A program made the translations under genes and the position numbers. Of a stretch of DNA of 24,952 bases, positions 1,485 to 24,952 are shown in pieces. This stretch comes from a virus. A model generated the notes under the pieces. That model saw only the letters and a program-made list of their open reading frames with translations. It was not told the origin of the DNA and made no database searches. The stretch is taken from positions 1-24,952 of the IMG/VR virus record IMGVR_UViG_3300008627_000820. One strand, written 5' to 3'. Within the stretch, counting starts at the first letter, position 1. Each line of letters begins with the position of its first letter.

Positions 1485-4418
1485 ATGAGCGCAGAGTCAA
1501 CGGGCCGCGGCCCGGCCCCGCACGTTCGCAACATGGGCGACGATCAGTGCCAAGCGGTCGTCATGATCCCGACCGTCGGAGATCCCGAGCTGCTGATCGG
1601 CTGTGTGCAGCGGCTGCTCGAAGCGACGACACTGCAGAGCTGGCAACTGCTGATCGTGATAAACCCGGTGGCGGCCACCGTTCCGCTCGTCGGGATTGTG
1701 AAAGGTCAGATCGGCGCTCTCGTCGACAGTGCCAACGCATTCGGTGACTCGGCGGTGGATCTGCGCTGGGTCGAGCTGCCCGCCGCCGCCGGCTGGACCG
1801 GCGCAGTCAACGCGGGCGTTCGCGCGCTGTGCGTCGACGGAATGCCCGAAGTGGTCGCGATCATCAACGATGACGTTCTCGTCACGACCGGCTGGCTGGC
1901 CCGCATGGGTAACGCGCTCGATCCCGAATTCATCATTCAGCAGGGGGAGGTTGGTCCGGCGGGCGACGCCGCCCCGCCGCGCGCAGCTGAGTCGTACGGA
2001 AAGATCGGCATGGTCGGCCCGTGCTCGAACGAGGTTTGTGGTCTTCAGAAGGTGACGGCCCCGGATATGAAGTTCACGAACGGCGCGGCATTCACGAACG
2101 ACGGGCCGCGTATGCTTGAGCGCTTCGCGGCCGATTTCACGCGCAAGGGGAACCCGTACCCCATGAGCGCGAGCTTTCTGTCCGGGCTCTGTGTCGTGTA
2201 CCGTCGCGCGTGCATCGCTGACATGCTGTTCATCGACGAAAGCGGCGATGCGTGTCTGCTCAATCCCGCGTTCGCAATCGGCGGCTACGACGACAATGAC
2301 ATCGCCGTTCGGGCGCAGCACGCCGGCTGGCGGCTTGTGATCGCCGGTCAGACGTATGTGCATCACCTGGGTCATCAGACTCTGGACGCGCACTTTCCCG
2401 AGGCGCAGCGCGGGCTCGGCAACGCTGCCGAGTATCTGCGGCAGTGGGAATCCACTACTGACCGCGATCATCGCGTCGTCGCGATCTACCGCATGAAGTG
2501 GGACGTTCCCTGGGATGTCTCGATGCTCTCGATGTCTCTGCGCCGGGTCGCGCAGCTTGTCGACGGGATCGCGATTCTCGCGACGAACAACCCCGCAGAC
2601 GTAGTCTCGAACGCGGAGTGGGAGAGCGATCGGGGTCGCATGTCTGCGACGGACGCAAAGCTCGTCGCCGCGTGTGCTGACTCGGCCGATTCTGAGTCCA
2701 TCGTGTCTGCGCTGAATGCGTATCTCGCCGAGATAGCGCCGGGTGTCGACACGGTCGCGAGTCTTCATCGGGCCGAAACGTGGAACGAGCGCGACGAGCG
2801 GAACGCCGCGATTCAGCTCGGCATGACTCTGCAGCCCGACTGGATGCTGAGCGTCGATCACGACGAGATCCCCGAGGACCGGATCACCCGCGGACACCTG
2901 CGCCGCCTGACTCGGCACCCCGATCCCGCGGTCACACACTACGACACCGGCTGGATCAATCATTGGGACAGCCCGCGGCTGGCCCGTGTCGACGCTCCGT
3001 GGGCGCACGGCTGGACTTCGAGTATGCGCGGGTTCCGTCTGTGGCGCGTGATGCATTCGGAGCACCAGCAGATCATCGCTGGGAACGAGATCGGGCTGCA
3101 CTGCGGCAACGTGCCCGACACCGGACAGAACGCAAAGCGCGTCGCCGCTTGGCGCTGGCGTCATTACGGGTACATGCGCCCGCAGGACCGCCGGCGCAAG
3201 TATCAGCGCTATATGCAGATCGACCGCAACCCTGACGCGATGCTGACTCAGGGAACGTCGCAGAGTCGCGGCGGCTACGCTCATCTCGTCGACGAGGAGG
3301 GCATGTCCATGCAGGCGTACCGTCCCGACAACGGGATCGGGCTCACAATGCTTTGGCACGCGGGCGAGCAGTCCCACGATCTCATGCGCTGGCTGGATCT
3401 TAGTTACGGCGTGGCCGATCAAATCGTGCTCGTCTGGACCGGGCCGGAAGACTCTGCGCCGTCCGACGACATGCAATACATCGCCGCCCGGTTCGGCGCG
3501 CGCTGGATCTCGCACCCGCTCGACGACGATCTGGCGGCCGCCCGAAATGCCGGCGTCGACGAGCTGCGCCGGCTCGGGTGCGGCTGGTGCTGGGTCATGG
3601 ACCCCGACGAACACATGGCACCGGCGTTTGCCACGCTCGTTTCGATCCGCAGACTCGCAGAGTGTGCGAACGGCTGGGCATGGATGTTCCGCTTCAGAAA
3701 CTACCGCCCGGGCGGCACGTTCAACTGGAGCGAGAATACCCGCATGTTCCGGCTCGACGGCGGAATCTTGCGGTTCAACGGTCGCGTCCACGAAACGCTG
3801 GAGCACGGGCTCGCGAGACTCGGCGCGAGCGGCGTCCACCCGAATGTGCGCTATGCGCCGTTCATCATCGAACACCTGGGGCTGAGTCGCGGCGACGCGG
3901 CAACCCAGCAGAAGCTCGTCCGGTACACCCGGCTGCTGAGTCTGCAGATTCGCGATGCGCCGCTCACAAGCCCGGGCGCGTGGGTGTCGCTCGGGCTGCA
4001 GTTCGGGAATGACGGGCTGTTTGACGAACAGTGGCGCTGCTACGAGATCGCGCTGCGCACCGCGGGCAACGGTTACCTGCCGTTCCGCGAGGCGGCGCTG
4101 CATCACTTGCGCAAGGGTCGGCAGCTGCTCGCCGCGGCTGCCGAGCGTCTGAGCCCGGCGCACGAGCTGCGCGACGCCACGATTCAGCTCGTCGAAACGC
4201 TGAGTCAGCACGCGCCCGATCAGCCCGTGCTGGGGGCCGCGCGCCGCGGTGCCACGGTGCCGCCGGACGTGAACCTCGACGAGCTGATCGATCTCGCTGA
4301 GTCTGCCGCCGCGGCGGCGCTCGCAGACTCTGCGCAGAGTCTGCCGATGGCCGGCCCGACCGTTCAGCAGACGATCGCGGTGGACGCGCCCGCGTCAGGA
4401 GTGCAGAATCAGGGGTGA
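1485..4418 (+). CDS. Tri-modular glycosyltransferase (three GT-A domains)
   Basis: This 977-residue protein starts at an ATG with a strong SD (GGAGGTGAA). Three glycosyltransferase-A-like modules follow one another. Module 1 (about residues 24-300) begins VVMIPTVGDPELL, has an Asp-Asp metal/nucleotide-binding site at 129-130 (INDDV) and a GGYDDNDIAVR acceptor-side motif, as in family GT2. Module 2 (about 328-600) has DHDE near 457-460. Module 3 (about 610-860) has LVWTG, DDDLAAARNAG, an Asp-Pro-Asp site at 706-708 and RVHETL, like SunS/TPR-type GT2 enzymes, followed by a TPR-like helical stretch and an Ala-rich tail. It sits between connector genes, which is unusual for an enzyme. Likely targets are virion proteins or host surface glycans; which one cannot be told from sequence. 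Confidence 0.85.
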   Translation: MSAESTGRGPAPHVRNMGDDQCQAVVMIPTVGDPELLIGCVQRLLEATTLQSWQLLIVINPVAATVPLVGIVKGQIGALVDSANAFGDSAVDLRWVELPAAAGWTGAVNAGVRALCVDGMPEVVAIINDDVLVTTGWLARMGNALDPEFIIQQGEVGPAGDAAPPRAAESYGKIGMVGPCSNEVCGLQKVTAPDMKFTNGAAFTNDGPRMLERFAADFTRKGNPYPMSASFLSGLCVVYRRACIADMLFIDESGDACLLNPAFAIGGYDDNDIAVRAQHAGWRLVIAGQTYVHHLGHQTLDAHFPEAQRGLGNAAEYLRQWESTTDRDHRVVAIYRMKWDVPWDVSMLSMSLRRVAQLVDGIAILATNNPADVVSNAEWESDRGRMSATDAKLVAACADSADSESIVSALNAYLAEIAPGVDTVASLHRAETWNERDERNAAIQLGMTLQPDWMLSVDHDEIPEDRITRGHLRRLTRHPDPAVTHYDTGWINHWDSPRLARVDAPWAHGWTSSMRGFRLWRVMHSEHQQIIAGNEIGLHCGNVPDTGQNAKRVAAWRWRHYGYMRPQDRRRKYQRYMQIDRNPDAMLTQGTSQSRGGYAHLVDEEGMSMQAYRPDNGIGLTMLWHAGEQSHDLMRWLDLSYGVADQIVLVWTGPEDSAPSDDMQYIAARFGARWISHPLDDDLAAARNAGVDELRRLGCGWCWVMDPDEHMAPAFATLVSIRRLAECANGWAWMFRFRNYRPGGTFNWSENTRMFRLDGGILRFNGRVHETLEHGLARLGASGVHPNVRYAPFIIEHLGLSRGDAATQQKLVRYTRLLSLQIRDAPLTSPGAWVSLGLQFGNDGLFDEQWRCYEIALRTAGNGYLPFREAALHHLRKGRQLLAAAAERLSPAHELRDATIQLVETLSQHAPDQPVLGAARRGATVPPDVNLDELIDLAESAAAAALADSAQSLPMAGPTVQQTIAVDAPASGVQNQG

Positions 4419-7586: not shown

Positions 7587-10500
7587 ATGCCCGCAGGCGG
7601 AACGAACATCGGCCGGCTGTTTGTCGAGCTGGGGCTAAAAGACGCCGACTTTCGCGGCGGCCTGAAAGCCGCCGAGTCGTCGCTGCAGGGTCTGTCTGCG
7701 TCGGGCGTAAAGTTCGGGCGCATGTTCGATCGTGCGGTCGCCGGCGGCTTTCTCGCAGCGACGACCGCGGCCGCCGGTTTCGCTGCTGCCAGCGTCACAG
7801 TCGGCGCGGGCTTCGAGCAGGCGATCACGACCGTTGGCGCGATCTCGGGCGCGGGCGACGCGATCTCGGATCTCGAAGCAAAGGCCCGGCAGCTCGGCGC
7901 GGCCACGGCGTTCTCGGCGACCGAGGCCGCCACGGCGATGCAGGATTTCGCCCGCGCCGGAATGACGACGAACGAGATCATCGCCGCGAGTGAGCCCGCG
8001 CTACTGCTCGCCGGCTCGGCCGGCGCGTCCATGTCGCAGTCGACAGCGCTGATGGCTGCCACGCTTGCCCAGTTCAATCTGGACGCAAGCGAGTCTAACC
8101 GAATCAGTGATGTCTTTAGCACCGCTCTGCGTAAGTCGCTTTTTGATATGTCCTCGCTCACCGAGGCGATGAAGTATGCCGGCACCGTCGGCGCTTCCTT
8201 CGGAATGAGTCTGGAGCAGACTACGGCCGCCGTTGCAATGTTCCGGGATCTCGGGCTCGAAGGCTCGATGGCTGGTACGAATCTGCGCATGGCGCTGGCG
8301 GCCGCTGCAAAGCCGACAGACAACGCCCGAAAGGCGCTGAAGCGATACGGGCTCGAAGCCGAGGACATCAACCCAGAGCTGCACTCGTTCGCCGAGATTA
8401 TGCAGACTATCGGCGATGCGGGGCTGCAGACTGCGGACGCTCTGCAGATCTTCGGAACCCGTGCGGGCGCGAACGTCTCAATGATCGCCCGGTCGTTCGC
8501 CGACGGCTCCACAGGGTTCCACGAACTACTCGACAATCTCGAAGACAGCGCAGGATCGACAGAGTCGCTGTATGCGGAAATGATGTCGACTGTGGCGGCG
8601 CAAGCCAAAATCGTCATGTCGGCGACAGAGGAGCTGCTCCTTTCGACGTTCGACACGTTCCGCGAGCCGCTGCAGGAGCTGCTGACCGAAACCGCAGAGA
8701 CGATCGCCTATGTCGCCGCGGTGTTCAAGTCCGAGTCCGCGGGCATCGGTCGCGGGTTCGACGAGACGATCGGCGATGCCGTTCGCTATCTGCGCGACAA
8801 CCGGGCCGAGATGGCGCTGGCGTTCGTCGACACGGTGCGCGCGGTCCAGCAGATCGTGTCTGAGCTTTCGGCGATGCTGCCGACTCTGCGCATAGTCGCA
8901 CAGGCGATGCTCGCACTGTGGGCAGCAGACAAGGCCCGGCAGCTGTCGCTCATAATCGCGGGTCTGCCCGCAAAGCTCGCGGTTCTGCGGGGCAGTGTCC
9001 ACGCTACTGTCGCGGCGCTGACAGCGGCGACCGGTGGCACATTTGCTCTCGTCGCCGCCGTCGGGGCGGCCGTTGCAACCATGATCGCGTTCGCGGCGTC
9101 TATGCGCTCGGCCGAAATGGCCGCCGAGAAGCTGCGCGCAGCCGAGCAGAAGATCGCCGACGAGCGCGCGACCCGCGATGCACAGACGCTCGCGGCCGCG
9201 CAGTCGATCTCGGCCGGGCTCGCCGAGCGTGTCGGCGCTGTCGAGCTGCTGCTGCAGAGCGAGGGAAAGCTAACCGACGAGCTGTCGCTGCAGCTCTCGA
9301 CGCTTGCAAATCTGACCGACGAACAGATCGCCGCGGGTCTTGCGTCGGGCAAGCTATACGAGGCGACGCTGGCTGGGAATCGCGTCGTGCTCGACGCCGC
9401 AACGGCGCTGAGGCTGCGCTATGAGGCGACCTCGCTTGCAGAGGAGGTGGAGTCTTCATTTGCGGCGGCGCAGCGCAAGTCTCGCGCCGAACAGGAAAAG
9501 GTGGCCGCTCAGACGCTCGTTCTGAATACGGCGATGGCGGAATATCAGAAGGCTGTTGGGCGGGGCCTGAGCCGCGTGGCGGCGTTCGACGGATCGCTGC
9601 GCAAACACGGCGACAGCCTCGCCGAGATCAAGTCCAGAATCAGCGACTACGGGGCGCAGCTCGACGCGCTGAAAGCGCAGGAGCAGGGGCTCTCGCAGCA
9701 GCGAAAGATTGCGACGCAAGATCTGACCAAGTCCGAGATCGCCGCCGAGAACGCGATCGAGGGAACGTCGAGCGCATATGCGAAAGCTCAGGCCGCCGCA
9801 AAGCTGCGCGAGCAGGCCGAGAAAAAGCTGCACGGGGCGCACAATCAGCGGCTCGCTGCCGTCGCCGCTGTCGAGCGCGAGATCGAGCTAATCGGCAAGA
9901 CGGGCGCAGAGCGCAGAGACATTCAGCTACAGCGCGAGATCGATGATCTGAATGCAAAGTTCGCGGCCGAGGTGCAGGCCGCAGATATTGCCGGCGCGGA
10001 TCTGATGCAGATCGAACAGCAGCGGCTTGACGCGATTCAGCTGCTGCGCGACCGCGCGTGGCTGGAGCAGCGGCAGACAGACACAGAGAGCGCAAAGAAG
10101 ACCGCAGAGACTGTCGACGATCAGGTGGCCGGTCTGCGGCAGTCTGCCGCGAAGCGCAACGCATCAGCGCTCGAAGCTATCGAGCTGGACCGGCTTGCGG
10201 CGCTTGCCGACGCCGAGGGCGCGACCGTCGATCAGCTGATCTCGATTAACGAGCACTACGCCGATCAGGCCGCAGAGACGCGCGCGGATCTTTCGGGCCG
10301 AGTCGCCGCGCTCGTCGGTGCAGAGTCGGGCGAGGTCGTCGGGCTCACGCGAGAGCGCGACGCGCTGCTGGCAGAGCTGGGCGAGGACCAGCACGCCGAG
10401 CGGCTGGCGGTGTCCGAGCACTACGACGAAAAGATCCGCGAAGCGACAAGGCGCGCGAACAAACAGGCCCGCGAAGACTCGCGCGAGATCGTCGATCAGA

Positions 10501-13323: not shown

Positions 13324-16300
13324 ATGACTGCTAACGCTCAGGGAACCCAGGCAACGGTTGTCGCTCGTGCAGAGACGCGGGCGAAGGCGCAGGGGCTCGT
13401 CGCCGAGATCGTGTGGCGCGAGCGCTACCGCGACCGGGCCGAGCCGCGATCGTTCGTGCTGTTTCAAGACGCGCGCAATGCGGCAGTCGCTGCCGTGTCG
13501 TCAGCGCCGAGTCAGGCCGGGCCGTTTCTCGGCGGGGCCAGCGCCGCGCTGACGAACGAGGGTGATCTGATCCCGTACGTGACCGGAACGTGGGACACGT
13601 CGTCGACAGCGACGCAGTCGACGCCGGGCGATCTGTCTCTGCGCGTTCTGCGCACCGGCAGTCTGTACGACTCTGCAGAGTGGGGCTGGAGCTACGCCGA
13701 CGACGCGAGCGATCAATGGCGCGGTGCGGACGATCTGCGCTGGCAGCACGATCCCGGCGCACCGTTCGGCGGTACTGCCGGCCTCGGCAGTCATCACGCG
13801 ATCGTGCATAGTCGGGCATTTAACCGGATCGTGGTCGGCTATGCGCCCGATGCGGGCTCGGCTCTGAAATTCAGATACCGCAGCGCGGCCGCGCAAAGCG
13901 CAGACACATGGAGCGCAGATTTCAACATTCTTCTGGCGGCGTACCGCAGCCCGAACGGCGGCGGCTATTCGTCCATGTGGGAGCTGCCCGACGGCGCGCT
14001 GCGCTGGGCGTACACGTACGAACCCGACTCGACTGGAGCGCCGGGCTATGTCGATATCGACATATTCGGCAGCACGAACGGCGGCGCGTCGTGGCAGCTG
14101 CTGAAAGAGGGCGTGGTAACCGATCTGTTCGGCTCCACGCAGGTTCTCGCGAAGCTGCGCATTGTCTCGTCGGGCGACTGGATGCGGCTCGAAGCGTGGC
14201 ACAGTATCGGGCCGGTTCCGCAGGGACTGATCAGCGCATACAGCGCCGACCGCGGCGCGTCGTGGGCGTTCGTGACCGGGCACAATGTGGCAGACGGCGA
14301 CGACGACACCGCAGGGAATGCCGACATCAGCGGCAAGTTCGAGGTCTGGGATCTGTGCAGCGTCGACGACAGCGGGACGTTCCTGCGCGTTCGCGCTGTC
14401 AGCGCCTCGGGCGAATTGCGGTATGAGCTTGCGACCCGCGACGCCGGGTGGGATCAGATCGCGAACACGAACGGCGCGAGCTTCGAGAGCGATGACACAG
14501 ACGCGATGACTGTGCATTGTGCGAGCGGCGGCGGGCGTTGCTTCGCGCTCGTGTTCCGTAGCGATCATCATGGCGCGGCAGCCGGCGCAGACTACTGGAG
14601 CGCCGCATCGTTCATCATTCCCGTGGACCGCATACAGGCCGGATGGGACAGTGCGGCGAACCCGCGGATCGCCGATTGGGCGCGGTGGGGTGCGGACGAC
14701 TGGACCGGTCTTGGCGGCGTCGCCCGTATGCACCCGAAGGACGCAACGCTCGCATGGGTCGGCGACCGGCTCGCGTTGTTCGGATCGTCTGTCGACAGAC
14801 AGACGGGCACGACGACCGCAGAGCGGCAGACGCCGTCGATCACATACTTTGGCGGCTCGTCTCGACAGCCGCTGCGCTCGGCGCAGATCACGAATTTCGA
14901 CATGACGACTCAGCTCCTGACATCGAGCTGGCACGCATGTCTCGGCAGCGTTCACACCGGCGGCGCTGAAACCTCGGCATTCAACCCCTGGGGCACGTCC
15001 TCGGGCGGAACGCCGACGAACAGCTGGACCGTCGAGAGGCAGTCGATACAGCTGACCACCTCGGACACTCAGCGTCACACGCAGTCGTCTTCTCTCGCCT
15101 CGCTGACGACTGCGCGGATCGCGGACGATGGGTGCTTTGGCTTCAGCACTCGCGCACAGTCGGGCAGCGTGCCCGACACCCCGTATCCGCCGAGCATGAC
15201 CGGCGCTGACTTGCGCTCGCCCCGCTGGGGGGCAGTCGTCAATAGCGAGTCTCTGATCACTGCTGGTCTGACTGTCAGCATCGCCGTTCATATCAACGGG
15301 AACACGGGCCAGTTCGCGGTTTACGACACCCTCGCCGTGTCGACGCTGTATGAATCCCCGGTCGGCGCGCTCGCCGGGATCACAGCCGGTACATTCTACG
15401 ACTTCCGGATCGGGCTCGCGCACAGTCGCAACGTCGGGCTGGCCGGCGGCACGTTCATCGCGGCCTATGTCTCTGCAGCCGCGGCGGGCGATTATGCGTG
15501 GGTGTCGACGGGCATGGTTACGACTGCGTCCGCGGCTCTGCCGTTCGCAAACGAAATGGTGGGATTCGGGCACTGGACGGTGCCTCTATCGACATCGACA
15601 ATGGAGTGGCGCGAAGCGTTCTACAGTCGCGCGTCCGGGCTCTCTCAGCCCGGGTTCTCGAACCCGTCGACTCTGCGCGGGTGGGACTGCTCGCCGCATG
15701 TTGTGCGTGTCGGCGCGGCCCATGACGTGCTCTGGGGCGGCGCGGGCGGGTTCAAGGCAGACACGTATACCGCGCCGATTCGGCACGAGTATGGGATCGG
15801 CCAGTCGTTCGGTGACTCGCCGCAGAGTCACTGGCGAAGCACCGCCACGACGACTCAGCAGATCGTTCTCGATTCGACACTGATCGACGGCGACACCCAC
15901 GCTCGATTCGTCCACTCAGGAATCGCCGGCATCAGCACGAACAGCCGGATTCTGGATGTCGAGTATGCCGATGACTCGGCATTCACTGCGCCAGCGCGTA
16001 TGCGTGTCGACGGTCTGCGATACTCGCTCGCGACCGTGTCGACGGCCGAGCCCGGGCACGTCGAGATCGGCAGCCCGTCGTGGCAGGACGGCGAGCTGGC
16101 CGGGCACTATCTGCGGGCACGTCCGGGCGCTGTCGCGAACCCGGGCATTCTGCGGATCGTTGGCAACGCCGGCACGTGGCTGCACGTTACCGGCATGACC
16201 GCCGGCGGCACGCTCGCGACGTACGGCATAACGGCGGGCGCGACTCTGGACATTTGGGGCAGCGCGCACCTGTTCGCCTATGACGACTGGCCCGCCGGCG

Positions 16301-16812
16301 TGCGAGTCATCACTGGCGCGGGCGTCGTGGACGGGGCTTTCCCGCGATACATGCGCGTGACGATCCCTGGCGCAGACTCACAGGGCGAGCCCCCCGAGGG
16401 GCGCTGGCAGCTCGGGCGGCTGCAAGCCGGTTTGACGTTGCCGATCACCGTTCCGCTGGCATGGTCGAGTCTGCGCGACTCTGAGTCTGGGACAGTCGAT
16501 CTGCAGACACTCGGCAGCGGCGCTCGCGTCGCATACCGCGCCGGTGCGCCGCGGCAGAGGCTGCGCGGTACCGCCGCCGGCGATGTTGACAGCTGGCGGG
16601 TGGCGTTCCGCAGCATGATCCGGCTGCTCGGCGGCTACAGTCTGCGCCCGGTCGTCGTCTGCACAGACGACACGGCGCAGAGTCTGCGCGCAATGTATGC
16701 CCGATTCATCGGGTCGACCGACATGGCGAACGCGGGCTACCGTTACGTCGCGTCGACCGGTCGCTGGGATCGTGTCGGCGATCTCGCTGTTCACTTTGAA
16801 CAGGAGATCTGA
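13324..16812 (+). CDS. Large tail fibre / tip protein with sialidase-like Asp-box propeller
   Basis: This 1162-residue beta-rich protein starts at ATG 13324, ten bases after the previous stop, with AGGA as SD. After an N-terminal helical attachment segment (about 1-65), residues about 75-480 contain repeated strands with two Asp boxes, STNGGASW (250-257, Asn for Asp) and SADRGASW (307-314, canonical SxDxGxxW). These mark sialidase-fold beta-propellers. The middle (about 520-830) looks like another lectin-like jelly-roll. The C-terminal 110 residues (VDLQTLGSGARVAYRAG to VGDLAVHFEQEI) form a separate small domain that probably docks to the hub. I did not identify a complete sialidase catalytic set, so a binding role is as likely as hydrolysis. 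It is the best receptor-binding candidate in the window. Confidence 0.65.
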   Translation: MTANAQGTQATVVARAETRAKAQGLVAEIVWRERYRDRAEPRSFVLFQDARNAAVAAVSSAPSQAGPFLGGASAALTNEGDLIPYVTGTWDTSSTATQSTPGDLSLRVLRTGSLYDSAEWGWSYADDASDQWRGADDLRWQHDPGAPFGGTAGLGSHHAIVHSRAFNRIVVGYAPDAGSALKFRYRSAAAQSADTWSADFNILLAAYRSPNGGGYSSMWELPDGALRWAYTYEPDSTGAPGYVDIDIFGSTNGGASWQLLKEGVVTDLFGSTQVLAKLRIVSSGDWMRLEAWHSIGPVPQGLISAYSADRGASWAFVTGHNVADGDDDTAGNADISGKFEVWDLCSVDDSGTFLRVRAVSASGELRYELATRDAGWDQIANTNGASFESDDTDAMTVHCASGGGRCFALVFRSDHHGAAAGADYWSAASFIIPVDRIQAGWDSAANPRIADWARWGADDWTGLGGVARMHPKDATLAWVGDRLALFGSSVDRQTGTTTAERQTPSITYFGGSSRQPLRSAQITNFDMTTQLLTSSWHACLGSVHTGGAETSAFNPWGTSSGGTPTNSWTVERQSIQLTTSDTQRHTQSSSLASLTTARIADDGCFGFSTRAQSGSVPDTPYPPSMTGADLRSPRWGAVVNSESLITAGLTVSIAVHINGNTGQFAVYDTLAVSTLYESPVGALAGITAGTFYDFRIGLAHSRNVGLAGGTFIAAYVSAAAAGDYAWVSTGMVTTASAALPFANEMVGFGHWTVPLSTSTMEWREAFYSRASGLSQPGFSNPSTLRGWDCSPHVVRVGAAHDVLWGGAGGFKADTYTAPIRHEYGIGQSFGDSPQSHWRSTATTTQQIVLDSTLIDGDTHARFVHSGIAGISTNSRILDVEYADDSAFTAPARMRVDGLRYSLATVSTAEPGHVEIGSPSWQDGELAGHYLRARPGAVANPGILRIVGNAGTWLHVTGMTAGGTLATYGITAGATLDIWGSAHLFAYDDWPAGVRVITGAGVVDGAFPRYMRVTIPGADSQGEPPEGRWQLGRLQAGLTLPITVPLAWSSLRDSESGTVDLQTLGSGARVAYRAGAPRQRLRGTAAGDVDSWRVAFRSMIRLLGGYSLRPVVVCTDDTAQSLRAMYARFIGSTDMANAGYRYVASTGRWDRVGDLAVHFEQEI

Positions 16813-18966: not shown

Positions 18967-19215
18967 ATGCGCGATCTTTCCGTTCATCGAGTCATCGAAG
19001 CAATCAGCGCCGGCCGCGCTGCGCCCGCCGGAACACAGACGGCGATCCGCGGCGTTCTTCCGCCGCGGATCTCGTGCCCGATCGGCTGCATTCTTCCGCC
19101 GCGGATCTCGTGCCCGATCGGCTGCATTCTGCACAGAACCGCCGGCTGCGACGGGTCGGCCCGGTGCGCGCTCGTCGACCCGCCGCGGGTTCGCAGAGTC
19201 GAATCCGCGGCGTAA
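18967..19215 (+). CDS. Small Cys-rich protein of unknown function with an internal duplication
   Basis: This 82-residue frame starts at ATG 18967, one base after the previous stop, with only a weak SD (GGGA), so it probably depends on translational coupling. The centre carries a 12-residue segment containing LPPRISCPIGC twice in a row, because a 36-bp DNA unit is perfectly duplicated. It contains six cysteines in pairs (SCPIGC twice, then CDGSARC). No signal peptide or membrane helix is evident and no family is recognised. It fills the gap between two membrane-protein genes in the same direction, and codon use resembles its neighbours, which favours a real gene. A non-coding repeat region is the alternative. 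Confidence 0.45.
   Translation: MRDLSVHRVIEAISAGRAAPAGTQTAIRGVLPPRISCPIGCILPPRISCPIGCILHRTAGCDGSARCALVDPPRVRRVESAA
19055..19126 (+). repeat. Perfect 36-bp tandem duplication
   Basis: Two identical 36-bp copies, 19055-19090 and 19091-19126, each beginning TTCTTCCGCCGCGGATC, followed by four bases of a third copy. The unit is a multiple of three and keeps the surrounding reading frame open. Confidence 0.95.
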
Positions 19216-19266: not shown

Positions 19267-19521
19267 GTGGAACAAATCGTGGAACGTCTGTCCAGCCGCA
19301 AGTTCTGGATGGCTCTGCTCGGCGCTCTCATGTCTCTGCTCCTGCCGGTTCTGACCAGCGAGATCCCGTGGGATGTCGCTCTGCCGAGCGCGATCACTGT
19401 GATCGTGTCCTACATTCTCGGCCAGGGTTACGTCGACGCGAAGGAGGCCGAGGGCGTCGCCGCGGCGCTTGCGTCGAACCCGACGATCGGCGAGGCCGAT
19501 CCCGGCGCTGTCGTCGAGTGA
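19267..19521 (+). CDS. Holin-like two-helix membrane protein
   Basis: This 84-residue protein starts at GTG 19267, preceded by GAGGTG. Two membrane segments are visible: KFWMALLGALMSLLLPVL (about 12-29) and VALPSAITVIVSYILGQGY (about 37-55), with a short periplasmic-type turn between them and a charged, Ala/Glu-rich tail. Length and topology match small class II holins. An 11-bp direct repeat (19263-19273 and 19275-19285) produces two in-frame GTG codons four residues apart (19267 and 19279), which recalls the dual starts of lambda S. The gene overlaps the next one as GTGA. A general small membrane protein is the alternative. Confidence 0.65.
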   Translation: MEQIVERLSSRKFWMALLGALMSLLLPVLTSEIPWDVALPSAITVIVSYILGQGYVDAKEAEGVAAALASNPTIGEADPGAVVE

Positions 19522-20336: not shown

Positions 20337-20353
20337 TAACCGGCGACGGGTTA
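20337..20353. promoter_or_regulatory. 17-bp dyad element, copy 1
   Basis: TAACCGGCGACGGGTTA, arms TAACC and GGTTA, ends 54 bp before the ATG at 20408. Copies 2 and 3 lie before the next two genes. A G/C hairpin (20368-20383, GCGGCG-CTGA-CGCCGC) follows it in the leader. The likely role is an operator or promoter-linked element. Confidence 0.6.
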
Positions 20354-20407: not shown

Positions 20408-21517
20408 ATGACGACGACCCCAACCAACGCCCCGCAGCTTTCCGACACGAGCGCTCAGATCGACAGCCTCGCCCGGCTCGTCTGGTGGGACTTCAGCGGC
20501 TGCAAGATCACGCCGGCCGATCTGCGAACCCGCGCAGCCGTCGCCGGGATCGATCCCGACACGATCGGCGAGATCGACGAGATCGCCGCGCTGAATCGCG
20601 CCGTTCGCGAATTCACGGGCCGCGGCGGCGGTGGCAAGAAGCTCGAAGCCGTGATCGCCCACGACGATGACTCCTCCGTGGTCGTCAACATTCTGGAGCT
20701 GCAGCGCCGCAGCTCGCGCCGGATGGCGAAGGAGCCGATCGACACGCTGATCTGGACCAAGGGAACGCCGGCCGCGCCGGGCTCCTGGCAGCTCGCCGGC
20801 ACGAGCGAGCACGCTCAGAAGCTGATCGATCGCGTCGCTCTGCGCCAGCAGTATCTCGATGGGAATGACGTTCGGTCGCTGATCGTGCAGCCCGCGCTCG
20901 CCGCCGCGTCCGCGTTCACTCTGCGCCGCGGAATGTATGTGGTGATGAACGCCGCATCCGAGCCCGTCGCGAAGGCGCAGCAGTCGCTCGAAACGCTCGA
21001 ATCCTTCTCGCTGAACGTCGCGAGCGTCGCCCGCGGCGCGGGCTGGGATCAGCCCGTGCAGAACAGCGCCGAGGCCGATGTCCGCAACGATCTGTCCGAG
21101 CTGCAGGAGCAGATCGACGGCTGGCGCGAGTCGGCCCGACGGGTGCGGCAGGACACTCAGGCCACCGTTCTGCGCCGGTTCGCAGAGCTGCGCTCGCGGG
21201 CGACGCTCTACAGCGAAGCTCTGGCCGTTTCACTCGAAGATCTGCAGGACGAGATCTCCGACATGGAGCAGCTGGCCGAGGATGTCATTGAGGGCGCGAA
21301 CAGCGACGCCGAGCAGCGCGAAGCCGATCGCGCCGCCGGCGACGCGGCCCCCAGCGATCCCGCCGAGATCGCCGCGAAGCTGCGCACGACGCTGGCAGCG
21401 CTCGATCCCGCGCAGCTGCGGCGGCTGTGGATGTCGCTCTGCGACGGCGACATGCCCGACGATCCCGGCGACATGGTCGAGCAGGTCGCCGCAGCGCGCG
21501 AAGCGCTCGCGGCGTAG
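20408..21517 (+). CDS. Coiled-coil partner protein of the AAA+/VWA pair (unknown family)
   Basis: This 369-residue protein starts at ATG 20408 with ACACAGGA before it. The N-terminus has LARLVWWDFSGCKITPADLRTRA, recalling the W-SG-K-P-DL pattern at the start of DUF3150-type proteins that often accompany phage and plasmid MoxR/VWA genes; this resemblance is from memory and uncertain. The middle (about 60-200) is mixed and includes GRGGGGKK. Residues about 215-300 are a long coiled coil (DLSELQEQIDGWRESARRVRQD, SLEDLQDEISDMEQLAEDVIEGA). The acidic C-terminus has LDPAQLRRLWMSLCDGDMPDDPGDM. It shares a 17-bp regulatory dyad with the ATPase and VWA genes, so it probably works with them, as substrate, adaptor or third subunit. 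No enzymatic motif is visible. Confidence 0.6.
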   Translation: MTTTPTNAPQLSDTSAQIDSLARLVWWDFSGCKITPADLRTRAAVAGIDPDTIGEIDEIAALNRAVREFTGRGGGGKKLEAVIAHDDDSSVVVNILELQRRSSRRMAKEPIDTLIWTKGTPAAPGSWQLAGTSEHAQKLIDRVALRQQYLDGNDVRSLIVQPALAAASAFTLRRGMYVVMNAASEPVAKAQQSLETLESFSLNVASVARGAGWDQPVQNSAEADVRNDLSELQEQIDGWRESARRVRQDTQATVLRRFAELRSRATLYSEALAVSLEDLQDEISDMEQLAEDVIEGANSDAEQREADRAAGDAAPSDPAEIAAKLRTTLAALDPAQLRRLWMSLCDGDMPDDPGDMVEQVAAAREALAA

Positions 21518-21645
21518 CCGCCGCAGATCCCGCACCCGCGCCGGGTCGACTCGTTCGGCCCGGCGATTCGTGCTGCTCGGCCAGCCCGGCGCTCTCGACC
21601 GTCGGCCGAGAAATGAGACAGAACCCCTGGGATTCTTCTCGCCCG

Positions 21646-21662
21646 TAACCGTCAACGGGTTA
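21646..21662. promoter_or_regulatory. 17-bp dyad element, copy 2
   Basis: TAACCGTCAACGGGTTA ends 52 bp before the ATPase ATG at 21715, within the 197-bp gap 21518-21714. TTCTTCTCG lies just upstream, as before copy 3. The gap also contains a 7-bp inverted repeat, CTCGGCC (21576-21582) with GGCCGAG (21604-21610). Confidence 0.6.
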
Positions 21663-21714
21663 ACCCTTGAGGGTGCAGCGACTGCCCGCTGCCGCGAACG
21701 ACACGGGAACGACG

Positions 21715-22890
21715 ATGACCACCAGCCCCGCACAGACCGCCCTCCAGACCCTTCGCGCCGAGCTGAAGGGCGCATTCGTCGGCCGCGACGCCGAAATTGA
21801 CGGCGTGCTGCTCGCTCTGATCGCGCGGACCCACTGCCTGCTGCTCGGCCCTCCGGGCACCGCAAAGAGTCTGATCACCCAGACGATCGCCGCGGCGCTC
21901 TCGCCCGCCGTCGACCCGGGCGCGAGCCGCGATGACTTCTACTTCCAGCAGCTGCTCACCAGCTTCACGACCCCGGACGAGGTGTTCGGCCCCTTCGATA
22001 TCGCCGGGCTCGACGCCGGCCGCTATGAGCGCGCCACGAGCGGCTACGCGCCGGCCGCGTCTGTGATGTTCATGGACGAGATCTTCAAGGCGAATTCTGG
22101 CACGCTGAACGCGCTCCTGACCCTGCTCAATGAGCGCGAATTTGACAACGGCACCAAGCGCGTCCGCTGCCCGCTCCAGATCTGCGTCGGCGCGTCGAAC
22201 GAATACCCCGCGGACAGCTCGCTCGGCGCGCTGTATGACCGTTTCACGATGCGGTTCTGGACCGACTACGTCGCGAGCCGCGCCGAGCGCCGCCGGCTGC
22301 TGACGTGCGCCGACCCGGCGTCGCAGGTCGCCGCGAAGCTGACCGCAGATCAGATCGGCGAGCTGCAGCGCGACGCCCGCGCCGTCAGCGTGCCCGAGCC
22401 CGTGCTGGACGCGCTGCTCGACATCGCCGATAGGCTCGCGAACGAACACGGGATCATCGTCAGCGATCGCCGGCTGCGGCAGTGCGTCGGGCTCGTTCGT
22501 GCCCGGGCCGCGCTGAACGGCCGAACGACCGCCGCGCGGTCTGATCTGCGCGTGCTCGCCGACAGCGTGTGGCGCAAGCACGACGAGCGGCCCGCCGTTC
22601 TCGCGACCGTGCTGGAGTGTGCTGCGCCGACGCTCGCCGCCGCTCAGAAGCTCGCCGACGCGGCGCGCGAAATGATCGAGAATCTGCGCGAGGGCGCGAG
22701 CGTCGACGACATGGAGAAGGCGATGGACGCGATCCTCGCGATCGAGAGCGAGATCGGCCGGCTCGACGCTGACCCGACCGAGCGCGCCGACGTGTCGGCG
22801 ATGCGCGCCGAGGCGGCCGCGTGCCGCAAGACGGTGGCCCGTCGCTTTCAGCGCCGGACGCCGGCGATGCTCTCGGCTCTCGGGCTGTAG
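21715..22890 (+). CDS. RavA-type MoxR-family AAA+ ATPase
   Basis: This is a 391-residue protein. The ATG at 21715 has ACACGGGA upstream; a TTG 48 bases earlier opens the same frame but is less likely. Walker A is GPPGTAKS (45-52), Walker B VMFMDE (117-122), sensor 1 ASNE (160-163), and an arginine-finger-type LYDRF lies at 173-177. The stretch FYFQQLLTSFTTPDEVFGPF, then GRYERATSGY and LNALLTLLNEREF, is characteristic of RavA within the MoxR family. E. coli RavA has 498 residues; this protein lacks the space for the LARA domain that binds lysine decarboxylase. A helical C-terminus (about 285-391) remains. Such ATPases act as hexameric remodelling chaperones with a VWA partner, and the next gene encodes one. 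Confidence 0.9.
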   Translation: MTTSPAQTALQTLRAELKGAFVGRDAEIDGVLLALIARTHCLLLGPPGTAKSLITQTIAAALSPAVDPGASRDDFYFQQLLTSFTTPDEVFGPFDIAGLDAGRYERATSGYAPAASVMFMDEIFKANSGTLNALLTLLNEREFDNGTKRVRCPLQICVGASNEYPADSSLGALYDRFTMRFWTDYVASRAERRRLLTCADPASQVAAKLTADQIGELQRDARAVSVPEPVLDALLDIADRLANEHGIIVSDRRLRQCVGLVRARAALNGRTTAARSDLRVLADSVWRKHDERPAVLATVLECAAPTLAAAQKLADAAREMIENLREGASVDDMEKAMDAILAIESEIGRLDADPTERADVSAMRAEAAACRKTVARRFQRRTPAMLSALGL

Positions 22891-22906
22891 ATCCCGCCAC
22901 GGGTAA

Positions 22907-22952
22907 CCGGGTCAGCGCGACACTCTCGGCAACTGGCCCGGCTTTCTTCTCG
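22907..22952 (+). terminator. Possible Rho-independent terminator after the AAA+ gene
   Basis: CCGGGTCAG (22907-22915) pairs with CTGGCCCGG (22933-22941) in nine base pairs including one G-U, with a 17-nt loop, followed by the pyrimidine tract CTTTCTTCTC. It lies directly before dyad copy 3, so it would separate the ATPase and VWA transcripts. Confidence 0.4.
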
Positions 22953-22956
22953 ACTC

Positions 22957-22973
22957 TAACTGCAAAGCGGTTA
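22957..22973. promoter_or_regulatory. 17-bp dyad element, copy 3
   Basis: TAACTGCAAAGCGGTTA ends 30 bp before the VWA ATG at 23004. The outer arms extend to CTCTAAC and GTTAGAG (22954-22976), and with inner GC pairs and one G-U the RNA could form a ten-base-pair stem with an AAA loop. Confidence 0.6.
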
Positions 22974-23003
22974 GAGACTTCATGTCACGCACAGGAGCCC
23001 CCG

Positions 23004-24464
23004 ATGACGACCCGCCCCGCAGCCCGCACCGCCCGCCACGTCGACGCCGTCTATGGCGTCAGCCGCTGGACGGATTACCTCTACACGCGCCGGCACGAGA
23101 TCGACCCGCTGCGCGCGAAGATCGCCGCGACGACTCGCGCGATGACCGGCGCGAACACGAACGCGGCCGAGCTGCGCCGGCAGCGGCGGCTCGCGCAGTC
23201 CCTCGGCCGCGAGCTGTTCGCGCGGCTGCTCGACGGCGACGCCGTGCAGCAGCTCGAAAGCCCGGCCGCTGGCACCGACACGCTGCAGCAGCTGCACGGC
23301 GCGCTCGCCGAGCTGCCCGAATTCGATACGCTGCGTCAGCAGACCGCCGGCGACGCCGACATGGCGGCGCTGGCCGCGGCCGAGCTGCTGAGCACGGTCC
23401 CGTCCGCACTCGCTGCGATCGAGCGCGAGCAGCAGCGCGAGCAGCAGCAGCAGCAGCGCCGGGATCGCGGTCTGCGCGTCCGCGGCGCTGCTGCAGACCC
23501 GGCCGGCGCTGTTCGCCGCGCGATGCGGGCCGCGACCGGCTCGGCCGCGAAGCGCGCCGCGGCGGCCGCGGCCGATCTGAACGGGCTCCAGCCCGGGCTC
23601 GGCGACTGCCCGCCGGCGAACGAGCAGGAAGATCCCAGCCGGCTGCAGCTCGCGCAGCGTCTGCAGCGCGACGAGCGGCTGCGCCGGATCATGAGGCTCG
23701 CCGGCCGGCTGCAGCGGATCGCCGCGGACACGCGGCCCATGCGCGACGACCGCGGGCGCGATGAGCTGGTCGGCGTGACGCTGGGCGGCGATCTGCCGAT
23801 CGCTCTGCCGCCTGAGCGCGCGCTTATGCGTCACCCACGTATGCGTCGCGTGCAGCTCGCGAAGCTCGCCGACCGCCGGATCGCGCAGTATCGTCTCGTC
23901 GGCAAGTCCCCTCAGGGCCGCGGCCCGATCGTCGTCATGCTCGACGAGTCCGGGTCCATGCGCCGTCGCGAGCGCTTCTCGTGGGCCGCCGCGATCGCGA
24001 TCGCGTGTCTTGGGATCGCGGCGAACGAGCGCCGGGCCTGCACGATCATCGGCTTCGCCGCATCCATTCGTCGCGTGTACCGGCTCGAAGCGAATGGCAC
24101 CGCGCGCGATCTCGCGACCGGGCAGCAGCTCGACGGCGTCGCCGAGATCGCGCTGCGGATCGCCGGCGTTTCGCCGCGCGGCGGGACGACATTCGACGCG
24201 CCGCTGCGGCGGGCGCTGCAGCTCGGCGCGGCCGGCGCGCGCGCCGATCTCGTGCTCGTGACTGATGGTCACGCCGACGCGAGCGAGAGCACGCTGCAGC
24301 AGCTCGCCGACGCGCGCGCCGAGCACGGGCTGCGGTGCTTCGGACTGACGGTGGGCGGCGGCTCGCTCGGCGCTGCGGTCGCGCAGATCTGCGATCGGAT
24401 CGTCGACCTCGACGCCGCGATCGGCGACAGCGATGCGAAGGGGGTGGCCGGTGCGCTGCCCTGA
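23004..24464 (+). CDS. ViaA-like VWA-domain partner of the AAA+ ATPase
   Basis: This 486-residue protein starts at ATG 23004 with ACAGGAG seven bases upstream; the frame is open further back but overlaps the ATPase gene there. The N-terminal half is helical and Arg/Ala-rich with a Gln run (EREQQREQQQQQ, about 139-150). The C-terminal half is a von Willebrand A domain with a complete MIDAS: DESGS at 314-318, Thr395/396 (GGTTF) and Asp421 (VTDGHAD). The MIDAS coordinates a divalent metal and binds a protein ligand. Length and layout match ViaA (483 residues), the partner of RavA in E. coli. CobT-like and CoxE-like VWA proteins are alternatives. The next gene overlaps its end by 14 bases. Confidence 0.85.
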   Translation: MTTRPAARTARHVDAVYGVSRWTDYLYTRRHEIDPLRAKIAATTRAMTGANTNAAELRRQRRLAQSLGRELFARLLDGDAVQQLESPAAGTDTLQQLHGALAELPEFDTLRQQTAGDADMAALAAAELLSTVPSALAAIEREQQREQQQQQRRDRGLRVRGAAADPAGAVRRAMRAATGSAAKRAAAAAADLNGLQPGLGDCPPANEQEDPSRLQLAQRLQRDERLRRIMRLAGRLQRIAADTRPMRDDRGRDELVGVTLGGDLPIALPPERALMRHPRMRRVQLAKLADRRIAQYRLVGKSPQGRGPIVVMLDESGSMRRRERFSWAAAIAIACLGIAANERRACTIIGFAASIRRVYRLEANGTARDLATGQQLDGVAEIALRIAGVSPRGGTTFDAPLRRALQLGAAGARADLVLVTDGHADASESTLQQLADARAEHGLRCFGLTVGGGSLGAAVAQICDRIVDLDAAIGDSDAKGVAGALP

Positions 24465-24915
24465 TCGCCGGGTCGCCCGGGCGCAGATCGTCGGCGCGCT
24501 GCACGCGCTCGCGCCGATCTGCGACAGCTTCGCGCCGGTCGGCGAGCTGACAGCGGACGCACGACTCGCGCTCGGCGGGCTCGGCGGGATCACGGGCGCG
24601 CAGCTCGCGCAGATGCGGCGGGTCGCCGGCCGCTGGTCTGCGCTCGACTCGCGGCTGCGATCGCTGCTCGCGAAGCACGCCCGCCGTGGGCCGGTGCAGG
24701 GGGCGCTCTGGCTGCTCCTGCTGCGCCGCGGCTGTGTAGATCCGTCGCCGGCGGTGCGCGGCAGCCTCGCCCGTCTGTGGGCCGACGAATACGGCACCTC
24801 GCCATCTATCGAGCTGCTGCCGGTCGCCCGGCTGCGGCGACTCTACCCCGACAGCGGCTCGCCCGAGCCGCAGATCCCGCGCCGGAACGGCGCTTACACA
24901 CAGGAGCAGACATGA
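24451..24915 (+). CDS. Unknown protein translationally coupled to the VWA gene
   Basis: This 154-residue protein starts at GTG 24451 with an AGGGGG Shine-Dalgarno seven bases upstream, inside the end of the VWA gene. An in-frame ATG at 24433 lacks a good SD. It is helical throughout: ARAQIVGALHALAPICDSFAPV, GITGAQLAQMRRVAGRW, LRSLLAKHARRGPVQGALWLLLLRRG and VRGSLARLWADEYG, ending in a Pro-rich basic tail. No catalytic motif or family is recognised. The tight overlap with the VWA gene means it is made together with it, so it may be another component or target of the AAA+/VWA machine. The stop overlaps the following ATG as ATGA. Confidence 0.6.
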   Translation: MRCPDRRVARAQIVGALHALAPICDSFAPVGELTADARLALGGLGGITGAQLAQMRRVAGRWSALDSRLRSLLAKHARRGPVQGALWLLLLRRGCVDPSPAVRGSLARLWADEYGTSPSIELLPVARLRRLYPDSGSPEPQIPRRNGAYTQEQT

Positions 24916-24952
24916 GCCGAAACCCCGACACCGACCGCGCATGGGCGTGGGT
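24912..24952 (+). CDS. Start of a further gene, cut by the window end
   Basis: An ATG at 24912 overlaps the preceding stop as ATGA and has ACACAGGAG upstream, the same SD context as the VWA gene and the coiled-coil gene. Only 13 residues are visible (MSRNPDTDRAWAW), too few for any assignment. It belongs to the same transcriptional unit as the VWA gene. Confidence 0.5.
   Translation, partial: MSRNPDTDRAWAW

Follow-up and report, generated by a model that had tools for sequence, protein, structure and literature searches.

Why would a phage carry a MoxR-type AAA+ ATPase and a VWA protein resembling the RavA-ViaA pair of E. coli, together with two further genes, close to its lysis genes? The question is raised by an isolated virus fragment of 24,952 bases (the whole stretch analysed, referred to here as the window), in which an earlier note had described such a four-gene set and credited it with a regulon of its own. 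Viral MoxR-VWA pairs are already known, among them p618/p892 of the archaeal virus ATV, and the viral precedents named in that note are sound; the published reports that were found describe the pair level only.

Layout of the locus and the ATPase-VWA pair

The four open reading frames, designated A, MoxR, VWA and D, are all on the + strand, at or inside the coordinates that the earlier note gave.

20408..21517, + strand: gene A, DUF6744-family protein (by alignment) of 369 aa; predicted alpha/beta N-terminal domain and long helices
21715..22890, + strand: RavA-like MoxR AAA+ ATPase of 391 aa; ATG at 21715; no LARA domain detected
23004..24464, + strand: ViaA-like VWA (MIDAS) protein of 486 aa; ATG at 23004
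24451..24915, + strand: gene D, predicted all-helical protein of about 154 aa, overlapping the VWA stop
24912..24952, + strand: start of the next gene (MSRNPDTDRAWAWV...), sequence cut by the contig end

The genes are real and the ATPase and MIDAS residues are intact, which upholds the claim of a four-gene set with MoxR and VWA. The lysis genes said to lie nearby are represented by a holin-like gene at 19267-19521, upstream of the module (phrog_9987, 1e-5); a gene for a tail-type protein is also located upstream. GTG 24451 is the probable start of gene D, with the in-frame ATG 24433 as the alternative; at the other end of D, its TGA and the ATG (24912) of the next gene, truncated by the contig end, overlap. 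At this position the relative L004 encodes a sigma-70-region-2-like protein (Sigma70_r2, 9.2e-10), and nothing more than position and a short similar N-terminal stretch ties the two genes together. Searches of the window against Rfam gave no match.

In Pfam, MoxR matched bpMoxR PF20030 (2e-52), AAA_5 and AAA_lid_8; it also matched phrog_19600 (1.3e-66). A profile built from MoxR and four relatives found RavA as the first match among solved structures (2.4e-74), and identity to E. coli RavA is 39% over 281 columns. The AAA+ core is complete, with Walker A and B, sensors and AAA_lid_8. VWA matched VWA_2 (Pfam) and phrog_24053, and carries an intact MIDAS (D-x-S-x-S / T / D). Its identity to ViaA is 26% over 239 columns, its length is similar (486 aa against 483 aa in E. 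coli) and its layout is of the ViaA type, in which a C-terminal VWA domain with MIDAS is encoded adjacent to a MoxR ATPase. No solved structure matched the VWA profile. In about 96 aligned sequences the Walker A lysine, Walker B DE, sensor asparagine, DR arginine and SDRR arginine of MoxR are near-invariant, as are the D, S, S, T and D of the VWA MIDAS.

Both proteins missed the NCBIfam equivalog cut-offs by far: MoxR scored 193.9 bits against 681 for RavA (PRK13531), and VWA 47.5 bits against 500 for ViaA (PRK10997). The LARA and RavA C-terminal domains, both of which were seen in the E. coli RavA control, gave no match at E 0.1 in the window MoxR. The pair is thus RavA/ViaA-like, not RavA/ViaA, and in that form the resemblance put forward by the earlier note is confirmed. 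The phage set shares with RavA-ViaA of E. coli the MoxR AAA+ core with AAA_lid_8, a VWA/MIDAS partner of equal length and the adjacency of the genes; it differs in lacking the LARA/RavA C-terminal domain and in having two additional genes and putative palindromic operators.

Conservation of the set and its two companion genes

IMG/VR was scanned with profiles of VWA and MoxR, which yielded 139 loci; iterative HMMs and removal of redundancy at 90% then gave 98 groups. Among them are the window and the records of Aphanizomenon phage CL131 and of Moorella phage MTATph1, a cultured phage that has A, MoxR and VWA. MoxR and VWA are both present in 93 of the 98 non-redundant contigs, most of the others being cut fragments; the possibility that the pair is never conserved together in related phages was thus not borne out. 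A, MoxR and VWA occur in 57 groups, all four genes in 11 and the pair by itself in 24, the remaining 6 being truncated or partial. Hence the four-gene neighbourhood is not confined to the window, and most groups have three or two of the genes. A is present in 70/98 groups, or in 74/98 when four MoxR-VWA contigs with A elsewhere are included. The order is A-MoxR-VWA in 32, MoxR-VWA-A in 18, A-MoxR-VWA-D in 11 and MoxR-A-VWA in 5, with two singletons. The window, having all three genes on one contig, is a DUF6744-MoxR-VWA triad as defined in this analysis. A was undetected contig-wide in 15 related contigs, so not every MoxR-VWA pair needs it.

By alignment, gene A belongs to DUF6744. Among the members of the A alignment, 57 of 68 match PF20529 at E 0.01 or better, the best at 1.8e-89. 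Scored by itself, the window protein reached 16.7 bits (E 0.0035) in a match spanning almost the whole profile; this is below the 27-bit gathering score, and the assignment therefore rests on the alignment, in which window A is tied to the family by a chain of 55% and 30% identity through L004 and L005. It had been described as a coiled-coil protein; the AlphaFold model (pLDDT 92.6) instead comprises an alpha/beta domain and three long helices. Comparison of the A model with the PDB returned nothing worth reading, and no solved fold matched D. Rows for Rad50 and CorA in the PDB fold searches of A and D had TM values of about 0.1-0.2 and were discarded. The tblastn search of A in named phages gave no match, A being too divergent, and viral contigs scanned with an A profile gave two loci only. 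DUF6744 had no match in 14 well-known control genomes, and no paper naming the family was found in the literature searched, a weak negative as that literature lacks most subscription journals.

The IMG/VR loci had been chosen by MoxR or VWA, and for this reason a reverse search was run from A alone in 684 bacterial genomes (400 Bacilli and 284 Myxococcota). It located A at 24 places, with MoxR within flanks of about 1.5 kb at about 20 of the 24; two of these 20 or so are in genomes used as search centres and are not independent. Ten bacterial genomes with MoxR-VWA loci contained 13 A matches spread over nine genomes, four of the 13 being in a single genome that had supplied four MoxR-VWA loci. 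Triads also occur in bacterial genomes outside evident phage context, at least one of them next to genes of housekeeping type. The identity matrices of A, MoxR and VWA correlate with r 0.58-0.68, against a permutation maximum of 0.15, and A is the most divergent of the three (mean identity 0.19, compared with 0.35 for MoxR and 0.26 for VWA). At the level of sequence, correlation and linkage show co-inheritance, not contact.

Homologues of D were found in 13 non-redundant contigs. The D-bearing contigs and one further contig form one clade in the VWA tree (support 0.976) and group more loosely in the MoxR tree; D is the mark of one phage lineage. Its model is all-helical (AlphaFold pLDDT 89.8), in agreement with the helical protein that the earlier note placed after the pair, and the gene overlaps the VWA stop. 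The two companions described there as unknown are real and are not random: A is assigned to DUF6744 and is common to most of the related phage pairs, and D marks one lineage.

A separate observation concerns a clade of 15 contigs in which a retron-type reverse transcriptase is encoded 0.2-1.6 kb behind VWA and no A was detected contig-wide. The clade bearing the reverse transcriptase has a support of 0.98 in the MoxR tree and 1.0 in the VWA tree. One outlier, L006, has both A and a reverse transcriptase. The Fisher p of 1e-10 for this side result counts related contigs and is to be read as one evolutionary event. Rfam gave no match in these loci.

Palindromic elements upstream of the module genes

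The regulon claimed for the set corresponds to a palindrome, TAACY-N8-GTTA, present in three copies in the window, each upstream of A, MoxR or VWA.

20337..20353, no strand: palindrome TAACCGGCGACGGGTTA, upstream of A
21646..21662, no strand: palindrome TAACCGTCAACGGGTTA, upstream of MoxR
22957..22973, no strand: palindrome TAACTGCAAAGCGGTTA, upstream of VWA
22907..22950, + strand: terminator-like hairpin (-18.0 kcal/mol, T-rich tail) preceding the VWA element; missed by a stricter scan

The pattern was defined on the window before it was counted in the relatives. Contigs of the D lineage hold 16 sites upstream of A, MoxR or VWA (the three of the window included) against 0.06 expected from shuffles; as these contigs are related, the 16 sites are not 16 independent events. 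Elsewhere there are 5 sites in 186 kb, and none was found in the windows upstream of A, MoxR and VWA in other lineages. The copies differ in their central bases, and the proteins of the contigs that bear them are down to about 30% identical.

In L005 (7719) the spacer of an almost perfect promoter, TTGACA-17-TACAAT, is taken up by the palindrome, and in L016, L023 and L076 a looser version leads into -10 boxes that resemble TATAAT or TATTAT. Several relatives have strong hairpins with T-tracts ahead of the element. The -35 and -10 boxes of the window itself are poor and a consensus sigma-70 scan of the window found no promoter, so the element is recognised only by comparison with relatives. 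From these sequence features A, MoxR and VWA can each be a transcription unit of their own with a putative repressor-type operator. After the module, relatives encode an HTH protein (11 contigs) and a small sigma-70-region-2-like protein (12 contigs), in all cases together with D. In L018 the palindrome is also found upstream of the gene in the place of the sigma-like gene, the product of which is not recognised by Pfam. We infer that the HTH protein and the sigma-70-region-2-like protein are the candidates for the palindrome-binding protein.

Possible role of the module

Several known systems resemble the module in part. ATV p618/p892 and the SMV1 homologues form a viral MoxR-VWA pair whose ATPase core is about 30% identical to that of the phage MoxR; the role of the ATV pair is in the development of the tails outside the cell (PMC4124505), unlike the phage module, whose context here is DNA metabolism. 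In the search that gave the ATV match, some of the Salmonella, E. coli and Campylobacter 'phage' matches are draft contigs of great length that may be host DNA. Bacillus phage 0305phi8-36 (orf66/orf63) and the jumbo phages of group 2.2 have a phage MoxR with a linked partner, in the former a second subunit; the available text of these reports presents them as pairs and has no mention of DUF6744 or an operator (PMC2147016, PMC7824862). The MoxR-vWA ternary conflict systems (VMAP, beta-propeller) share the PF20030 bpMoxR profile, the vWA partner and the three-component logic; the third component here is DUF6744, not VMAP, beta-propeller or iSTAND, for which no Pfam match was obtained in A, VWA or D. 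In the haloarchaeal tailed virus HVTV-1, gene 25 is DUF6744-like (profile 2e-23; fold match probability 1.00). This virus also has AAA and vWA genes, but gene 25 is about 15 kb from these, and they do not match the MoxR/VWA profiles used. No description of a three- or four-gene MoxR-VWA set with an operator was found in the literature searched, a weak negative since most subscription journals were not covered.

Downstream of D, relatives have sigma-like, HTH, RecU and helicase genes. Among the triad neighbours to which a name can be given, exonuclease, clamp loader, RuvB-like, Erf and RecE predominate. Sugar-epimerase genes, integrases and one endolysin are found as well, and the 25 top neighbour families listed for triads include no capsid or tail family. 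Most neighbours are unnamed, so the DNA-metabolism context is a leaning, not proof.

A role as a virion-assembly chaperone, in which MoxR-VWA helps to fold or assemble tail or head proteins, has been proposed for ATV p618/p892 (PMC4124505) and for the jumbo phages of group 2.2 (PMC7824862). It would agree with the position of the window module after tail and lysis genes and with the 30% identity of MoxR to the ATV protein over half its length. Relatives, however, place the module before recombination and replication genes and give it promoters of its own, which argues against a purely virion role and against the virion remodelling suggested in the earlier note; with capsid and tail families missing from the top triad neighbours and triads present in bacterial genomes, at least once beside housekeeping-type genes, we regard such a chaperone as unlikely. 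The bacterial triads outside evident phage context would suit a conflict module acting against competing elements or host defences, or protecting the host when chromosomal, as would the retron-type reverse transcriptase in place of A in the sister clade; several predicted conflict systems are built around MoxR-vWA pairs (PMC7159879). The four proteins, however, had no PADLOC match, no VMAP, beta-propeller or peptidase partner was detected among them and no effector domain was recognised, so that a conflict role appears rather improbable. Very improbable is a captured host RavA-ViaA copy modulating respiratory complexes or the membrane during infection: identities of 39% and 26% to RavA and ViaA speak for it, and against it stand the undetected LARA and RavA C-terminal domains, equivalog scores of 193.9/681 and 47.5/500 bits and a third component particular to the viral proteins. 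Nor was any evidence found for the membrane or respiratory-complex target that had been suggested, and with no PADLOC match the suggested defence evasion likewise gained no support.

The reading favoured here, with moderate confidence, is a phage-type AAA+/VWA remodelling machine with DUF6744 as its third component and operators of its own. That it is an AAA+/VWA machine as such is likely; that it acts on DNA-metabolism complexes of phage or host, and not on the virion, is a guess. The MoxR hexamer would spend ATP in pulling on the target, and VWA, as its cofactor, would dock an acidic residue of the adaptor or target via its MIDAS. DUF6744, the fastest evolving of the components, may be the target-choosing adaptor, a part that RavA assigns to its built-in LARA domain, and D may tune target choice in one lineage. 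A phage regulator, probably a helix-turn-helix dimer, would bind the palindrome between -35 and -10 and, so bound, repress each gene separately. The weakest step is the target, which would be a DNA-metabolism complex of phage or host. A bolder extension, which we hold to be doubtful, is that DUF6744 could be the general third subunit and target-choosing adaptor of phage MoxR-VWA machines, for which the sister clade would have swapped in a retron-type reverse transcriptase; the whole would then be a modular viral platform for remodelling or conflict in which the recognition parts can be exchanged.

Reports of single viral MoxR-VWA pairs go back years, and no consensus has formed on what the pairs do. 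With a third gene that is conserved, a fourth that is particular to one lineage and a putative operator defined by its sequence, the pair becomes a defined module that is open to reconstitution, deletion and assay, and the module gives DUF6744, a family of unknown function, a first testable role.

Genes beside VWA and retron-type reverse transcriptases

Fifteen phage contigs that together form a monophyletic clade carry a retron-type reverse transcriptase gene behind the gene for the MIDAS protein VWA, and none of them contains DUF6744. This clade consists of 11 further contigs and the four listed here.

Retron-type reverse transcriptase genes, by contig
L034, 8422-9411, retron-type reverse transcriptase
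L035, 5313-6212, retron-type reverse transcriptase
L039, 9122-10006, retron-type reverse transcriptase
L134, 9954-10877, retron-type reverse transcriptase

Both DUF6744 and the reverse transcriptase (9554-10402) are present in contig L006. The spacing ahead of the reverse transcriptase is 0.2-1.6 kb, a gap which could accommodate a retron RNA; none was detected there by Rfam.

Surroundings of A and other window features

Upstream of the DUF6744-family gene A, the relatives L004 (5924-6643) and L022 (3325-4074) carry a nucleotide-sugar epimerase/reductase-like gene, which is absent from the window between the lysis genes and A. A tandem 36-nt repeat (19043-19114; two copies, 92% alike) is located immediately upstream of the holin-like gene. 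Amid the virion genes lies a 977-aa ORF (1485-4418), the N-terminal start of which resembles a glycosyltransferase by eye. The tail region includes a large ORF of 1162 aa (13324-16812) that weakly matches a BNR repeat (E 0.025) and matches nothing in PHROG.

DUF6744 in bacterial genomes and an archaeal virus

DUF6744-MoxR-VWA loci, MoxR being an AAA+ ATPase, were found in bacterial genomes, where they may belong to a prophage or an island or be resident genes.

L178, 3394-7771, DUF6744-MoxR-VWA locus
L202, L206, L208 and L214, DUF6744-MoxR-VWA loci

In Oceanobacillus jeddahense the locus adjoins housekeeping-type genes, and the Polyangium fumosum genome contains four MoxR-VWA loci. Close to a triad in Oceanobacillus damuensis, on the opposite strand, a 795-aa protein is encoded (L163, 8230-10617) that looks like a defence-island-type AAA ATPase when its sequence is read by eye. 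Gene 25 of the haloarchaeal virus HVTV-1 (L229, 9815-10966) is DUF6744-like, with a profile match of 2e-23 and a fold match; thus, the range of DUF6744 extends to archaeal tailed viruses.
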